Origin: Candidatus Sumerlaeota bacterium
GTDB lineage: Bacteria; CG03; SLGR01
Direction: 5' to 3'
DNA: 7,132 nt
Assembly (NCBI GenBank): GCA_007136585.1
Contig: SLGR01000081.1
Location: 1-7,132 of the forward strand
In this document: piece after piece, positions 2 to 7,132 of the stretch
Numbering within the stretch: position 1 is the first letter of the stretch
How the letters are laid out: every line of letters begins with the position of its first letter
Notes under the pieces: generated by a model
Told to the model about the DNA's origin: nothing
The model's database searches: none
Seen by the model: the letters and a program-made list of their open reading frames with translations, nothing else
Made by a program: the position numbers and the translations under genes

Positions 2-3000
2 AGTCTCTATACTTCCCCTGTACCACCATCCCCGGGGCAGAGAGACGCTTCCGGCAAGGTTAAGTTTTCTTGACCGGTCTCCCCTTACCGGGTTCTCCAG
101 AAGCCACCCCGAAAGCTCCTGCAGAAAAGCTGCGGAGGCGTGACCCAGTTCGTGAACGGCTGTAACCGGCGAAAGGAGTAAGAGCGGAATCCTGCCGCGG
201 CGGGATATAAGCTCCGCCAGCGAGGAACGCAGCCCGCCGGGTCCTTCATCCATTAACAGCAACTCTTTCTCTTTAAGCGCTTCCTCAAGACCCTCTTCGG
301 CACCCTTGTCCTCCGGGATGCTCATACTCAACCTTCCCTTGATCTCGCTGATATCAATAATTGTTTTGTACTCAACAGCTTCTTTGAATTTTTCAATTGA
401 AAGGTTTAAAAGCTTCAGCCGTTTATCCGGAGATTTCTCCGCCCTGCTCATTAAAAGCAGCGCGCGCCCCATACCTTTACGTGAAAGAAGAAGCATAGAT
501 AACCCTTCTGAATCCGAGGCCTTTTCATAAGCTGCCCGGGACTTATCCAGAATCTTGTATCTTTCGCGGCTGTCGGAGAGGCTCAGAGCTTTTTCCAATA
601 AAGCGTTTCCAAGTTTTATATAATCAGGTTCGGAACCTGTAAACCCGGCAAGGCGCTCATAGGCCTCAACCATCCGGTCTGTGATTCTCACTTTTTCCGC
701 AGAGTCTTTTTCCAGTTCCAGCAGTTCAGAAAGAGCTTCGCCGATACCGGAGTAGGCAACCGGAAAATACCTGTTAAGGGAAACCGAATGTTCAAAATAT
801 TTCAGGGCTCTTTTCACCAGATGTCTTCTCTCTACCGGGTCATCCGTGTTCAGCCTGCTTTGATGAAGCAGGTTAAAACCGGCGTTATTGTATATGGAAG
901 CATCAGCCTCATTATTAAGTATCACTATAGACCTCTGAAGTTCATCCAGAGCCCGGCTGTATAACTCCGCCTTCCTGCCGGGATCAGTCTCCAGAACACC
1001 TGCATAAAACAGCTGCCCTCCTATGTGTTCGTGTAGAGCATTGAGTATTCCTCCGGTAAACCGGGAAATACTTAAAATCCGGCTATGGGCAAACTGCTGT
1101 CTAAGCGGCCTGGGAAGTTCTATATAAAGAGTATGCCTTTCTCTAAGGTTTTCGGACAGATACCCCGCAGAGATAGTTTTGAGGCGTTTATTATACACTG
1201 AACCGGTCGGCTCAGCGTACAGGTATGACTTATCAGATAGCTCAATAACCGGAAATATATGTCCTGGGAAACTACCGGCATATATTCTGTCTTCGCTCAC
1301 CCCTATCTCATTTAATATCCTGGAGGTGAGCATAGTTTTACCCAGGCAGCAGAGTTCGCCCGTGCGACAGGTAAACTCGGGAGCCCAGTCTAAAGGAACC
1401 GTATCTTGCATACCCGGAAACCTCTCAACTTCCCGGCAGACCTCTCTGATAACCTTTATCTCTTCATCTGTATCTCCGTTCTCTGCGGCCGCCTCTAACC
1501 GCTGCTTCCATTCATCAAGTGGAAGAGTCTCCTTAAAGTGAATACCCGCAGAAGTCGGCGCGGAAAGACCTTCAAACATCCGCTCCAAGCCTTTAAGCAG
1601 AATAATATATTCCAGCTGATTTTTTACAATCTCAGCCGCCTCCCGGGCTATTATGCCTGAAGAGGTATCCGCCCACGCTCTCAGCTTCTCCGGGTTATTT
1701 ACGGTTTCAAATGAGAGCCCAAGATTCCGGCTGAGATATTCCCGCACGGTATTCTCATCACCCTCAAAACCCCGCGCCCTTATTTTCTCATACGGGATAC
1801 TTTCGTAAGCAGCAGCCGGACCGATTCTTTGGCCAAGGTAATAGAGAGTTTCCACAACCCTGCGCATCTTATCGGCTAAACCTTTATCCAGGGATTCCAT
1901 ATCTATATTCCGCGCAAGATAAATCGCGGAGGCCCTCAGCCTTGCAGACGGAATCCCGGGTATACCCTCCCCTGCGGGTATATCCCCAATTGTGGAGTGT
2001 ATATCCTCAAAAAGGTGTATTATCTCTCCGAGAGTTGCATCTTCAGGAAGGATATACCTGGTCAGACCGTCTTTCTCCGATTTCAGGAAAGGCTTATATT
2101 TTCCGTCAGCCCTGTACTTCCCCTCCGAGGTAAGAAGCGGGTTTCTCTCATTAAACTCGGCCCTGGAGATAAAACTTACTTCTGTACCTCCGACTGCACC
2201 GGTCCAGCTCATATCAACCTCTACAGCCTCCCTGCCGCGGAAACGGGTCTCTATAATACCGCTCCGCCTCAGGGTGTCTAAGAGCTCCGCGGCTATCTTC
2301 TCTTCAATTACCTTGAAATCCTCCACCGGTTCCAGAAGTGGACGGCCCGACGGAAACTCTTCAAGCCTCTTCTCAAACTCACCCCTTATCTCTTCCGGAA
2401 GAAGCACGCGTCTTTCTACCGGTACAGTATCAGACACCGGAGTATCCGGTTCCGGGGCCACAGGTGAATCAGGGGAATACCCTTCGGCCCTCAACCGGGA
2501 TATATAACCGTATATAACCTGTTTCTCAAAATATTCAAAGGATCTTTCATACTCCCGGGTCTCAGGCGAATGGTTTTCCTCTAATGCGGCTTTAAAGAGT
2601 TCCCCAGGCTTGAACGGCAGCCCCTTTTCCACAATCTCATCCTCCAGCCACTTCAGCGTTGCCCGGGCTGTCCTGTGAGATTCAAGGTCCTCCGGGCGAT
2701 TAAGAAGACTCAGCGCAGCTTTCCGGTAGCTTACATCCCCGGTCTCTTTTCTCGTTTCAAGAGCCCGGGCCCATACTCCGGCTGCCGCATCTTTTTCACC
2801 AGCGGCCAGACTGAGATTTTCTAATGCGGTCATCTCGCCCAAGTCGGCTATAAACTCTGAAACGGATCTGGACTCTTTTACCGGCATTTTAACTATATTA
2901 TGTGCCACTTCGTGAGCCAGCGTGCTTATAAATAACTCCCGTCCCTCACGGCTGATAAAAGGTATCCCGTATTTTAATCCGGCATCAGCCTGGTCGTAGT

Positions 3001-6000
3001 TCTCAATAAATGCGGATTTTTCCAGTATCTTGTCCCTTACTTCCTCATATTTTTCGGGCGTAACAACCCCTTCAGGGCTGAGCACCTGGAATATTTTAAG
3101 AAGAGCCAGCTGATAGAGCTTTAGATATTTTTCCCGGTCTGCCCGCGGCAGGAGTTCCCGTGGTCCCATTGAGTCAAGAAGTACGGCAAGAGATTTTTCC
3201 ATTGCGTATTCCGGGGTATCATAACTTAGAAGAAAACCGTAATTCTCCGAAAATTCATCACGTATGCGTAAAATCTGGCTCAGGTACTCATAGTACGAAA
3301 AAAGGATTAACGAATTTATATCAAAATCCTCTTCAGACGCCGACTCTTCTGTCCTTCGTTTCAGTATCCTTAGCAGATCGGCCGGTATAACGGCCCCGTG
3401 CCCTACTCCGCTTTGCTTATCGGCATCTTCCATCTTACGCAGCATCTCGTAGCTTATAAAATTCCGGCTGAGGTTTTTCAGAAGGAGTTCTCTCCGGCCT
3501 GAGGCCGTACTGACTTCCGCCTTTAACGTTTCTGCGGACGGATCAAGAGGACGCAGCCCCGCTCTGGTAATATCGGCGATGAAATACTTCCGGCCTTCAT
3601 CCGGCTTAAACCCGGCTTCGTGTTTATCAGGGTTAAACCCGCTCCCCATAGACGGAATTATAACTTCACCCCCGAACTCCGCCTTTATATAACCGGAGAG
3701 GGCCTCCTTAAAATAGTTGTTTGCCAGACCCGCGTACGAAGCGTTCTGGGTTCTTTTACCTGCCTCGGCGGCGACCCTGAGGCAGGCATCAAGGTCAAGG
3801 CTCCCGCTCAGACCCTCCGCCAGAGAATTGAACTGCAGGTCAAACTCACCCATCTTCCCGATAAGTTCGGCCTTGGGATAATCCTTCAGGACCTCATCCG
3901 GAACCTCCTCTCCGGTGGCCAGCGCCAGGATTACTTTAAGCTCGTGGCTGTTTAAATCACTCCCGGAAAGCTCTCCCGCGGCGGCCGCCTCCTTCACCTC
4001 TTCACGGGTTAAACGCCAGGTTTCAGGCCCGGGCGCGGGTTTTCTTTCAGTAAAGACAAGACCTTCCGCTTTTCTCTCAAACACGGGTCTTTTAAATTCT
4101 GTTATCATAGCCGCAGCCTCAGCGTAATCAGGACGCTGCTCGGGATCTTCGGAGGTCATCTCGCTCAGAAGACCAACTATCCGCCCGTGGAACGAGGTGT
4201 CTTCCGCGGGGCGGCCTTCTATTTCAGATTCAATGTAGCCGGAGAAAACCGGATCGCTTTCAAGAAGGAAAAGCATGAAGGAACCGATATTATATATATC
4301 GCTCTGGGGGTATATGACAGGGTTCGGAGACTCTACCAGCTCCGGCGGCCCCCAATCATCGGCCCCGGCGTTGTTATACCCGGGCTCTTCCGAAAAATTA
4401 TGGGCCAGCCCGAAATCTATAAGTTTTACGGCGGGCTTGCCTGCTCTGTCTGTTGTCACTATGAAGTTTTCCGGCTTTATATCGTTATGGGAGTACCCGC
4501 GCGAGTGTACCCCTTCCAGCGCAATAAGGGCCTGCTTCAGTATATCAGCAACAAACTCCGGCTTGAGCTCCCCCCTGGCAGCAAGCTCCCTGAAGATAAA
4601 CTCCGAAAGGTCCGTTCCCTCGTAGTAATCCATTATTATCGCCTTCTCTCCCCTATAATCAATCAGCTCCGCCTGAGGGATGCCGCTTATCCCTTCCAGG
4701 TCCTTCAGAGCCCTGATCTCCCTGGCGATGGTCCTTCTGTCAACTTCGGGCGATAAGGAAGAGGCCTTTATCAGCTTCATGGCTTTCTCTTCCCCTTTAT
4801 AAACAACCCTGAAAATATCGCCGTATGAACCGCTGCCGATATGTTTGAGTATCTCCGGCTCTTCCGTGATGGATGCTGAAGGAAGCCCCAGCCGCGGTGC
4901 CGCCAGGTTGTAGGCCCGATGGATAATACTCACTGCAAGAAACCCCGCAAGGATACCCGGTATACCCGAAAGGGTAAGCGCGCACAGGATAAACCCCGCG
5001 CTCATTACAAACCCGGCGGCAAATATTGCCGTCCGGTCCGGAAGAGTTGATTCCCGCACCACGCCTTCCTTCAGAACCCGGGTGTGAAGGTAGGCGAATA
5101 TCCCCGCACCTAAAGAAGCCAGCCCTCCAAGAAGGGGTGCCGAGGAGATGAACTCCGGAATAAAGGAGAGAGTTTCCGCTCCGAGCTCATTTCCGGCAAG
5201 CAGGGTAAAAGGGACCAGGACGGAGGCAAGGAGGGCGTTTTCTTTTAATTCCCGCAGAAACTCTTCTCTCGCTCCTTCAGCGCGGGCCGAGGGAAGTTTA
5301 TCGTCCGGAGTTATAATTTCCTTACCAGGGGCTTCCAGCGCCGCGGTATATTCTTCGTTATCAGTCAGGCTCAGGGTGGAGTCGGAGATCTCTCTTCTCA
5401 GGGTGTATACGGTCTCAGTTGTGCCTTTTTTAATGGGTTTAACGGATATCTGAATAAGCCAGGCCCTGCCGTCGGAACTCACAGCCGGATCTCTTACCCG
5501 GACTCCCTCCCAGGAACTGCTGTGCCTGTTTAAGGCCTTCCTGAGCTGCCTTATATCATCAACTTCACCCAGGATTTCAGATATCTCCACCATTGTTCTG
5601 AAAGCGGCCCGGTTTACCTGATCCTGGTTTAGAAATATAGAGCCCACGGCCAGGCGCTCGTCTATAAGCTGCTGATAAGTAAGGGTTTTCTCGCCCCTGA
5701 GAAGCCTGTAGTAGGTCTCCATCATTGAAGGAGTATGCTCTGCCGCCCTTGGCATAACAAGGCTGTAGGAGATTCCCCGGTCCCGCAAAAGGTTTGTTAC
5801 CCCTTCCGAATGAAACCCCCCGAGGAGCATAACCGAAACCCTGTTTTCTTCCGGATTATCCGCGGCAAAGTTATTTACAAAATACTTATCCCTCCTGAGC
5901 GCTTTCTCATAGAAGGCGCTCATCTCCTCCGCGTAAGGAGCCAGGGAACTGAGTATCCCGTCTAAACGTGAAACCTCACTTCCGCGGGTACGTTTAAGAC

Positions 6001-7132
6001 GATCAAACCTCACACTGAACTCCCAGGAGACCTCTTCAAAGTTTTTCAGTTCTTCCCGGGTTACCTGGTTTAAAAGAAATTTTGTAAGAAGCTGTATATA
6101 ATCAGATACGAAAAGAAGGTCCTTCTCCTCCCTGTTACGGCATAGTGCTCTGCTTATACCATCAATTACTTTCTGCTCCTCTCCGATCAGGCGGTAGGTA
6201 TTTATACGGCTCATAGCTTCCATTGCCTGTATATACTCTCTTAACTCCGCATACTGGTTTCCGGAGTATATCTGTCTTACTATACTCTCGTAAACCGGTT
6301 CCGGAGCGCGGAAGATATCAGTAAACTGCTTGAACGGACTCATATCAACCGGGTTTATATGTCTTACCAGGTGGTCATACTGGCGCCTGATCCTTCTCTC
6401 GTCAAGGCCTGCCAGTTTTTCGGAAACCTCCGTGTACCTTGAGTACCCCGGGGATATATCTCCTAAGCTCACTCCGGCATACTCGCCCCAATCTCGCAGG
6501 TACCTGCGGAAGAGATGTCCGGAGATCTTCTCCTGCCTGTAAAGCGCAAGCTGTGTTCTGAACCTTCTCAGAGCGGTAGAGAATACGCTGCTTTCAAGGT
6601 CTCCGAGAAGACCGGAGGCATCCTGAAGAAGGCGGACCGTTTTTTCCCTGTTATTAAGAGACGAGATAAGGATATCAAGGTTCTTATCGTAAAGTTCGGG
6701 GTTCTCTATTCCTGTAAGGGGTGGTGATTTTCCGGGGTTGAGTATACTGTAGGCTTCGGGGCCGCTTACCATCCCCTTCCTCATAAAATAATCAAGAACC
6801 CTCTCTCTTACTCTCTCGTCTGGTATGGTAGAGATTATGGAGGTATCTATTTCCTCTCCGGAAGGGTCCCCTTCAAGGCCTACCCTGGTTACAGGAGCGC
6901 TCCGGCAGATAGCTCCGATCAGTTCTTTTATTCTGCGCTGGACCTCATAATTGGCGTGCAGATCCTTTATTATCACAACCTGCGGGTCTTCACCGCCGGG
7001 TCGAAACTCATCAACAACCTGCCCCAGCTTTAAAGGAATATCAAACCGGGTCTCCGATGCAGCAAGGGTGGCCGAAGCATGGGAGTAATCTGCTATGACG
7101 TAAGTGAAGAACATCGCCCCCGCAAGCAGGCA
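2..7132 (-). CDS. Giant multidomain membrane protein with Ser/Thr kinase, HExxH and transglutaminase-like modules (partial at both ends)
   Basis: A single minus-strand frame runs through the whole window with 2377 sense codons and no stop; neither the start nor the stop codon is inside. Codon-by-codon translation gives a convincing protein throughout, with recognisable motifs in the same frame at both ends and in the middle, so no frameshift is needed. Domain order: signal-peptide-like end, D-L-H-A-N-Y-E / G-G-F-H-S-E-G domain (27-465), hydrophobic cluster (630-738), protein kinase (760-1012), HEVAH site (1407-1411), transglutaminase-like module (1915-1982), TPR-like repeats (2038-2257), HELGH site (2327-2331). 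The chain is at least about 260 kDa. Isoleucine is very often ATA and arginine often AGG, AGA or CGG, evenly along the gene, so nothing suggests a recently inserted segment. The overall function is unknown. Known fact: very large ORFs are reported in Omnitrophota; assigning this gene to that phylum is inference. Confidence 0.93.
83..211 (-). other. Second HExxH motif behind a hydrophobic run, possibly M50-like
   Basis: Residues about 2308-2350. A hydrophobic stretch (I-P-L-L-L-L-S-P-V-T-A-V, 2315-2326) leads into H2327-E2328-L-G-H2331-A-S-A-A-F. HELGHA at the end of a hydrophobic segment is typical of M50 (site-2 protease) membrane metallopeptidases, although many other zincins have HELGH too. 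The chain continues to the left edge (W-W-Y-R-G-S-I-E-T at 2369-2377), before a third zinc ligand or an M50 'DG' motif could be seen. Zinc binding by the two His is likely; the family is a guess. Confidence 0.5.
362..1021 (-). other. TPR-like helical repeat region
   Basis: Residues about 2038-2257 form a series of amphipathic helix pairs. Clear examples are A-L-D-E-L-Q-R-S-I-V-I-L followed by A-S-I-Y-N-N-A-G-F-N-L-L; then A-L-K-Y-F-E-H-S-V-S-L-N followed by F-P-V-A-Y-S-G-I-G-E-A-L; then M-V-E-A-Y-E-R-L-A-G-F and Y-I-K-L-G-N-A-L-L-E-K-A; then S-R-A-A-Y-E-K-A-S and K-G-M-G-R-A-L-L-L-M; and finally K-F-K-E-A-V-E-Y. The alternation of 'A-x-x-x-F/Y-x-x-A/S' and 'G-x-A-L' helices is the TPR pattern, with insertions of charged sequence between units, as in degenerate bacterial TPRs. 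It probably serves as a protein-binding scaffold next to the Cys module. Confidence 0.7.
1187..1390 (-). other. Transglutaminase-like (papain-fold) module with Cys-His-Glu
   Basis: Residues about 1915-1982. The segment T-G-E-L-C1928-C1929-L-G-K-T-M-L-T-S-R-I-L-N-E-I-G1944 has the transglutaminase-core pattern in which the catalytic Cys starts a helix and a Gly follows 15 residues later; C1929 fits this spacing. Then come A-G-S-F-P-G-H1958-I-F-P-V-I-E-L, matching the 'G-H-x-W/F-x-E' strand with the catalytic His, and Y-L-Y-A-E1974-P-T-G-S, where the family usually has an Asp-Pro-Thr. So the triad would be Cys1929, His1958, Glu1974. Such domains act as proteases, deamidases or acyltransferases; which applies here is unknown. 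Glu in the third position is unusual and might reduce activity. It sits between helical sequence and the TPR-like repeats. Confidence 0.65.
1391..2827 (-). other. Unassigned region between HEVAH site and transglutaminase-like module
   Basis: Residues about 1436-1914. The first 110 residues are helical, with A-A-G-E-K-D-A and W-A-R-A-L-E type sequence that could be one or two helical repeats. After a Pro/Asp linker at 1552-1572 comes a compact stretch with mixed strands and helices (about 1590-1720), including M-S-W-T-G-A-V-G-G-T-E-V-S-F and H1706-L-F-E-D-I-H1712. The rest is helical up to the Cys module, with W-K-Q-R-L-E-A-A-A-E-N-G near 1875. I cannot assign a family to any part. Confidence 0.4.
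2417..2479 (-). other. Pro/Asp/Val-rich interdomain linker
   Basis: Residues 1552-1572 read Y-S-P-D-S-P-V-A-P-E-P-D and then T-P-V-S-D-T-V-P-V. The recurring Pro with acidic residues and no hydrophobic periodicity is typical of an extended, disordered hinge. It separates the helical part that follows the HEVAH site from the mixed alpha/beta stretch upstream of the Cys module, so it probably marks a domain boundary. Confidence 0.6.
2828..2941 (-). other. HEVAH zinc-metallopeptidase-like active-site region
   Basis: Residues 1398-1435. The sequence E-L-F-I-S-T-L-A-H1407-E1408-V-A-H1411-N has the hydrophobic lead-in and HExxH helix typical of zincin peptidases. Fourteen residues after the last His comes S-E1426-F-I-A-D1430, an ExxxD pattern of the kind that supplies the third zinc ligand (Glu) in gluzincin-type enzymes. 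The spacing is short, closer to compact ImmA-like peptidases than to thermolysin, and I cannot name the family. What is seen is the motif; peptide hydrolysis is inferred. With the N-terminus exported and three helices before the kinase, this site would be cytoplasmic. A role in cleaving the giant chain itself is conceivable but unsupported. Confidence 0.6.
2942..4096 (-). other. Unassigned helical region after the kinase
   Basis: Residues about 1013-1397. It starts with a Pro/Lys-rich hinge (about 1020-1036) and continues as mostly helical sequence rich in Glu, Leu, Ala and Lys, with few Gly or Pro except a loop near 1160-1185 (G-S-G-F-N-P-D-K-H). The stretch about 1270-1390 is Tyr- and Leu-rich (for example Y-Y-E-Y-L-S-Q-I-L-R-I-R) and leads directly into the HEVAH helix, so it may be the N-terminal half of that peptidase-like domain. 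No known domain signature recognised. Confidence 0.4.
4097..4855 (-). other. Hanks-type Ser/Thr protein kinase domain, non-RD, apparently catalytically complete
   Basis: Residues about 760-1012. All core kinase elements are visible in order: glycine loop G766-S-G768-S-Y-G771; beta-3 lysine K786 in K-A-M-K-L-I; helix-C glutamate E805 in A-R-E-I-R-A-L; catalytic loop H882-N-D884-I-K886-P-E-N889; metal-binding D906-F-G; P929-P-E931 in place of APE; S-D945-I-Y-N-I-G, the helix F aspartate; and a terminal R1000-P in the usual subdomain XI place. The length of about 250 residues is normal. It should transfer phosphate from ATP to Ser or Thr. The residue before the catalytic Asp is Asn, not Arg (HND), and the segment from D906 to E931 contains no Thr, one Ser and one Tyr. 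This argues against the usual activation-loop phosphorylation control. The adjacent membrane cluster suggests a membrane-tethered kinase. Substrate unknown. Confidence 0.92.
4919..5245 (-). other. Cluster of three to four predicted transmembrane segments
   Basis: Residues about 630-738 hold hydrophobic runs at roughly 633-647 (short, with Pro641), 661-682 (Gly-, Leu- and Ala-rich), 702-721 (Phe-, Ala- and Gly-rich) and 723-737 (Gly-Ile-Pro-Gly start). A charged loop with Arg, Lys and Glu lies at about 683-701. Histidine 738 and Arg739 close the block, about 20 residues before the kinase begins. This matches a membrane anchor placed directly ahead of a kinase domain. The helix count is uncertain because the first run is short and the last two nearly touch. 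With the N-terminus exported, an odd number of helices puts the kinase in the cytoplasm. Confidence 0.65.
5246..5737 (-). other. Unassigned segment between the N-terminal domain and the membrane cluster
   Basis: Residues about 466-629. It begins with helical, Met- and Tyr-rich sequence (for example M-M-E-T-Y-Y-R-L-L-R), then contains a possible beta-rich stretch with alternating polar and hydrophobic residues (A-W-L-I-Q-I-S-V-K-P-I near 545-556). It ends in a charged Glu/Arg helix that runs into the first hydrophobic segment. The first part may complete the N-terminal domain. I recognise no family motif. Confidence 0.4.
5738..7054 (-). other. N-terminal domain with DLHANYE and GGFHSEG motifs, possibly TraB/ChaN/Tiki-like
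   Basis: Residues about 27-465. It opens with a beta-strand-like V-V-I-I (52-55) leading into K-D57-L-H59-A-N61-Y62-E63-V-Q65. Next comes V-G-L-E87-G-D89, then a long helical region rich in Arg, Glu and Leu (about 130-420). It closes with V-S-V-M-L-L-G-G-F-H441-S-E443-G and I-S-Y456-S-L-V-M-P-R (454-462). Two strand-plus-His motifs bracketing a helical middle, the second resembling 'hydrophobic strand-GxxH-xxG-xxxLL', recall the TraB/PrgY, ChaN and Tiki superfamily. I also associate this pairing with large uncharacterised proteins of Omnitrophota, from memory. If the signal peptide is real, this domain lies outside the cytoplasm. Metal binding or hydrolase activity through His59, Glu63, Glu87 and His441 is a hypothesis only. 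Confidence 0.5.
7070..7132 (-). other. Signal peptide C-terminal part or N-terminal membrane segment
   Basis: Residues 2-14 are an uninterrupted hydrophobic run (LLAGAMFFTYVIA), followed by a polar stretch ending S-H-A-S-A at 17-21. The small residues at 19 and 21 fit an AxA-type signal peptidase I site. A polar linker and the first conserved motif follow at once. This is what the h- and c-regions of a Sec signal peptide look like, with the positively charged n-region and start codon just past the right edge. The alternative is an uncleaved transmembrane helix of a protein that extends further upstream; the window cannot separate these. Met at residue 7 (7112-7114) would cut the hydrophobic core in half and is an unlikely start. 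Confidence 0.55.

Follow-up and report, generated by a model that had tools for sequence, protein, structure and literature searches.

Organization of the open frame

The window analysed here is a 7,132-bp stretch of DNA that makes up one entire contig (C178) of a fragmented genome (G000; 1.88 Mb, 88% complete). A single minus-strand frame of 2377 codons runs through the whole 7132-bp window without a stop. The frame is open at both ends and the window is the whole contig, so the encoded chain is truncated on both sides. What remains is the N-terminal and part of the internal region of a giant mosaic protein that belongs to a family. The following features were predicted. Residues of protein P0001 are numbered from the ATG at position 7114 and are 6 lower than in a preliminary description of this DNA, which counted from base 7132.

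2..7132 (-), single open frame, giant-protein fragment, open at both contig ends
7070..7132 (-), remaining C-terminal portion of the signal peptide, CLLAGAMFFTYVIADYSHASA, from alignment with the complete N-termini of relatives, e.g. MKFLSSIYTKIICWTVSGAMFFTSVINNYAHA
5615..7060 (-), constant head, EreA/ChaN-superfamily-like, P0001 19-500 (head profile, AF2, VIA)
6956..6958 (-), head H53 of the DLH motif, possible counterpart of EreC H50, invariant in 17 heads
6872..6874 (-), head E81 of the LEG motif, 28 residues C-terminal to H53, the spacing of EreC H50-E78
5810..5812 (-), head H435 of the GGFH motif, possible counterpart of EreC H289
4880..5209 (-), hydrophobic segments that separate head and kinase, probably forming a membrane hairpin (hydropathy)
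4115..4852 (-), complete Hanks-type Ser/Thr kinase, P0001 755-1000 (PF00069, E 5.2e-30)
2465..4057 (-), HEVAH module, P0001 1020-1550, also present in further giant chains
2900..2914 (-), HEVAH zinc-site motif, H1401-H1405; H, E and H invariant in 6 copies
2843..2857 (-), EFIAD (ExxAD), candidate third ligand; E, A and D invariant in 6 copies
2663..2677 (-), HRTAR, conserved downstream motif with H1480 and R1484; H and R invariant in 6 copies
1085..1852 (-), transglutaminase-like Cys-His-Glu module, 48% identical to the start of chain C123
1346..1351 (-), Cys1922/Cys1923 (GELCC)
245..1087 (-), putative helical TPR-like stretch, 32% identical to C123
140..154 (-), HELGH, P0001 2321-2325, in a hydrophobic setting; M50-like beginning of a domain that the end of the contig truncates

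The preliminary description had placed a kinase, HEVAH, a Cys-His-Glu set and HELGH on one polypeptide, and all four are present on this frame where it located them. The range it gave (83-4855) covers these sites and leaves out the conserved head of about 480 residues at 5615-7060.

Nucleotide differences between the window and relatives in the same genome were compared by codon position. The values for the first, second and third positions are 0.32/0.19/0.56 in the head, 0.42/0.36/0.61 in the HEVAH module and 0.49/0.38/0.61 in the module joining the Cys site and the TPR-like stretch (TG-TPR). Because the differences lie mostly at third codon positions in the three modules compared, the frame is translated and under selection. 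Neither a reassigned stop codon nor a missing stop was accepted as the source of the long frames, as adjoining ordinary genes have normal lengths and stops. The window is only 7.1 kb long, compared with a giant-gene criterion of an ORF >20 kb; in one relative that shares this head, the open frame measures 35.6 kb (11,860 aa). A search with the full protein for related loci returned no match.

The head domain and the window's enzyme modules

The first ~20 residues of the signal peptide lie outside the window, as judged from alignment with relatives. The head that follows (~480 aa) is the best conserved part of the window chain. A head profile matched 13 of 290 genomes, and the head is N-terminal in every chain whose start is present. 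Relatives with names that carry the head are 'Elusimicrobia bacterium' MAGs. Relatives of the head or of the HEVAH module were not found among the viral contigs searched.

Pfam and PDB sequence profiles fail to detect the head. Membership of the EreA/ChaN/Tiki superfamily was predicted from the DLH, LEG and GGFH motifs ahead of the fold searches. EreC, BcR135, ChaN and HopBA1 form one fold group, and H50, E78 and H289 are the residues discussed as catalytic in EreC (PMC7979712). The corresponding His, Glu and His are invariant across 17 heads, five of which come from genomes outside the window's phylum. An AF2 model of the head built from six sequences (pLDDT 76.9) was aligned by VIA to ChaN (Z 8.5), EreC (Z 8.0), BcR135 (6.7), HopBA1 (6.6) and RRSP (5.5), where a Z near 8 is borderline. 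These five matches span the whole head model, and the helical-bundle matches mostly cover only its middle. Foldseek with the head model gave no significant match by itself (E above 0.01), and the assignment to the EreA/ChaN superfamily, with a predicted fold and a candidate active site, is therefore probable and not proven. The head resembles EreA/EreC, ChaN, BcR135, HopBA1 and RRSP in the predicted full-length fold, in the His/Glu/His motifs and in the 28-residue His-Glu spacing, but differs from them in having a long helical insertion, in its predicted export and in its fusion to giant chains.

The strongest hydrophobic segment between head and kinase comprises frame residues 703-721 (hydropathy). 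In several members positively charged residues lie on either side of the hairpin, a pattern that does not decide its topology. The kinase scores 105 bits against PF00069 (cut-off 31.7) and covers profile positions 3-257 of 263. Alignment with other bacterial kinases identified GSGSYG, the Lys, the alphaC Glu, HND, the Asn, DFG and PPE. The catalytic domain is thus as complete as in bacterial Hanks-type kinases (PF00069), from which it differs by being non-RD, with HND replacing HRD, and by its position within a giant chain with a signal peptide.

The HEVAH module was identified in five other chains with different neighbours (C161, C150, C26, G001 and G003), which are 27-41% identical to the window copy. 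The preliminary description had made its reading of the site depend on whether these residues are conserved in homologues; HExxH, together with the other metal-site-like residues of ExxAD and HxxxR, is invariant in all six diverged copies. Two HExxH motifs occur in the window protein, against 0.056 expected from its composition. Comparison of the module with M48 by hhalign gave a probability of 75%, over 45 columns only. The window copy has no Pfam M48 match and reaches SprT-like only at E 0.2, and PDB profiles contained no meaningful relatives of the module. Judged by the conserved residues, the module is probably a real gluzincin metalloprotease.

The candidate residues of the Cys site are C1923/H1952/E1968. 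The TG-TPR module was found in only one other chain, C123, in which the Cys and His are kept and the Glu is replaced by Asp. The Cys module has no Pfam match, with no hit to Transglut_core at E 10; its hhalign probability against transglutaminase, using two sequences, is 0.07%, and AF2 on the single sequence yielded no usable fold (pLDDT 38). PDB profiles contained no meaningful relatives of TG-TPR. The proposed site is thus retained as far as its Cys and His in one relative, and the papain or transglutaminase fold is unconfirmed. The TPR-like repeats of the preliminary description did not hold up against Pfam: the best TPR signal is below the cut-off (15.7 bits versus 23.5, E 0.024) and falls at 1867-1895, outside the presumed TPR stretch. 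HELGH lies 46 residues from the contig end with a weak match to PF13398 (M50B; E 0.041), and the remaining domain would lie beyond the window. An HExxH in a similar hydrophobic setting also occurs in C123 and C150.

Constant tail, variable cargo and tandem giant genes

All-against-all comparison of the chains identified a common C-terminal tail of about 300 aa, which ends no more than 7 residues from the stop in all 13 examined chains that have a stop. Eleven copies were detected in the window's genome and eleven in G001, and the tail is also present in G003 and G004. PDB profiles contained no meaningful relatives of it. The tail profile gave no match in nine other head-bearing genomes, which may reflect a lineage-specific tail or excessive divergence. 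Two tails from one genome (L015:1056-1961 and L018:2417-3322) are 93% identical, compared with about 30% for other tails; this similarity suggests that ends of giant genes were duplicated or recombined recently.

Four contigs carry a chain that ends in the tail and, next to it in the same orientation, a chain that begins with the head, and a fifth contig, C243, has the tail-then-head arrangement by coordinates. Gaps of about 0.5-2.2 kb separate tandem giant genes in L015 (G000:C24), L014, L018, L057 and G003:C25, and one gap between tandem giant genes holds a response regulator gene. A minimal protein of 1098 aa in G001 consists of head and tail with little between, and lies mid-contig among tandem chains. 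Head-bearing open frames reach 9931 and 11,860 aa in G003 and 13,841 aa in G102, and two consecutive chains on one G003 contig have minimum lengths of 13,409 and 11,860 aa, respectively. The length of a further head-bearing frame in G242:C22 (L206-L209), nominally 24,620 aa, was discarded, since it is mostly masked N. In the window's genome 19 giant frames were collected, with 41,108 residues in total. Most relatives, like the window itself, are only fragments on contigs, and no chain in the window's own genome spans head to tail.

A diverse set of enzyme domains was identified in the middles of family members, including pyruvate kinase, adenylate kinase, PPDK, SecA, asparaginase, topoisomerase IB, GH94 and GH130. 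Further cargo comprises cation efflux, gyrase A C-terminal repeats, FHA, M23, metallophosphatase, HD, SNF2, ABC1 kinase and methyltransferase domains. Catalytic residues are kept where checked, and the embedded pyruvate kinase and adenylate kinase retain their catalytic motifs. A stand-alone adk is also present in the window's genome. A giant chain (L016, G000:C123, residues 2241-2573) holds the sole pyruvate kinase identified in this genome, which is 88% complete; two relatives have the enzyme as a stand-alone protein. L213 (G000:C226), a giant chain of 6000 residues with the constant tail at its end, contains a SecA-like motor at residues 4266-4784, with DEAD, preprotein-binding and P-loop domains (E 1.8e-73).

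A conserved domain architecture was rejected, as modules are shuffled among chains. The preliminary description had proposed a search for homologues sharing the window's domain order; this search retrieved the HEVAH module in the five chains with other neighbours and TG-TPR in one. Its remark that no described protein has this order is probably correct, although relatives do not conserve the order. Sequence comparison across the family shows the open frame, the constant ends and the shuffling of modules between members.

Possible roles of the giant chains

We consider it somewhat probable that the window belongs to an exported, envelope-tethered giant mosaic multi-enzyme chain, with a constant head, variable enzymes and a constant tail. 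Each member consists of a signal peptide with an EreA/ChaN-like head, usually a hydrophobic hairpin, variable enzyme modules and the tail of ~300 residues. The signal peptide would direct the chain into the Sec pathway and the hydrophobic segments would anchor it in the envelope. The enzyme modules, joined or cleaved apart, would act outside the normal cytosolic pool of the producer, either at the cell surface or in a partner or prey cell. In the window member the working parts would be the kinase, the HEVAH gluzincin and the transglutaminase-like site. It counts against this reading that most of the cargo depends on ATP or cytosolic metabolites, a need that points to a place inside the cell or to delivery into another one. 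A more general proposal, which we offer tentatively, is that the family represents a bacterial export frame used on partner or prey cells, in which a signal peptide with an Ere/ChaN-like head and a tail bracket an interchangeable cargo of captured, diverged cytosolic enzymes, such as kinases, glycolytic enzymes, SecA, topoisomerase and proteases, encoded in tandem giant genes.

One alternative is a receptor-like chain, whose head senses the outside and whose hydrophobic segments cross the membrane, with the kinase, protease and further modules at work in the producer's own cytosol. The order of signal peptide and head, hydrophobic segments and ATP-dependent kinase is consistent with this arrangement, as is the recurrence of hydrophobic segment and kinase as a unit in chain C13. 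The cargo, however, varies from pyruvate kinase to SecA, GH94 and others, unlike a signalling output, and the two hydrophobic segments of several members would return the tail to the side of the head. We regard a receptor role as unlikely. Somewhat less likely still is a polyprotein that is cleaved, by its own or other proteases (the HEVAH gluzincin, the M50-like module or the Cys site), into soluble enzymes serving the producer. Protease-like modules do recur across several giant chains, and the embedded enzymes resemble whole domains with catalytic residues; yet no protease module was detected in some of the chains, and a separate adk exists in the genome anyway. The proposal of the preliminary description, that the kinase governs proteolysis or crosslinking on its own chain, starts from modules sharing one chain but is without support and very improbable, because the kinase and the HEVAH/TG-TPR modules are not kept together across chains, the latter being found in fragments with no detected kinase (C161, C150 and C123), and the kinase is non-RD.

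The proposed exported, envelope-tethered chain shares features with known systems. Polymorphic toxins and MARTX-type multi-effectors combine constant delivery parts and variable enzyme parts in one long chain. The window family likewise joins constant parts and variable enzyme parts, but differs from these toxins in that no known secretion-system marker was seen, in cargo rich in metabolic and housekeeping enzymes, and in having constant regions at both ends. Giant proteins are reported to be common in Omnitrophota, Elusimicrobia and CG03 (PMC12057145). These giants of related lineages (PMC10066038; PMC12057145) are likewise very long single ORFs, several per genome, with membrane segments and few recognised domains, and action on partner cells has been proposed for them. 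Their descriptions emphasise adhesin, carbohydrate-degrading and coat-like features (PMC10066038; PMC12057145), whereas in the window family the signal peptide, head and tail stay constant and the cargo is similar to enzymes of the cytosol. No published description of the head-cargo-tail frame was found in the open-access literature; giant proteins of such lineages are already known.

Giant proteins of uncultured lineages are known but mostly opaque. The constant head and tail provide a handle on them, as targets for searching, folding and tagging, and the cargo can be read between these ends. The presence of SecA, pyruvate kinase, adenylate kinase and PPDK inside giants with signal peptides is unexpected and makes the role of these giants directly testable.
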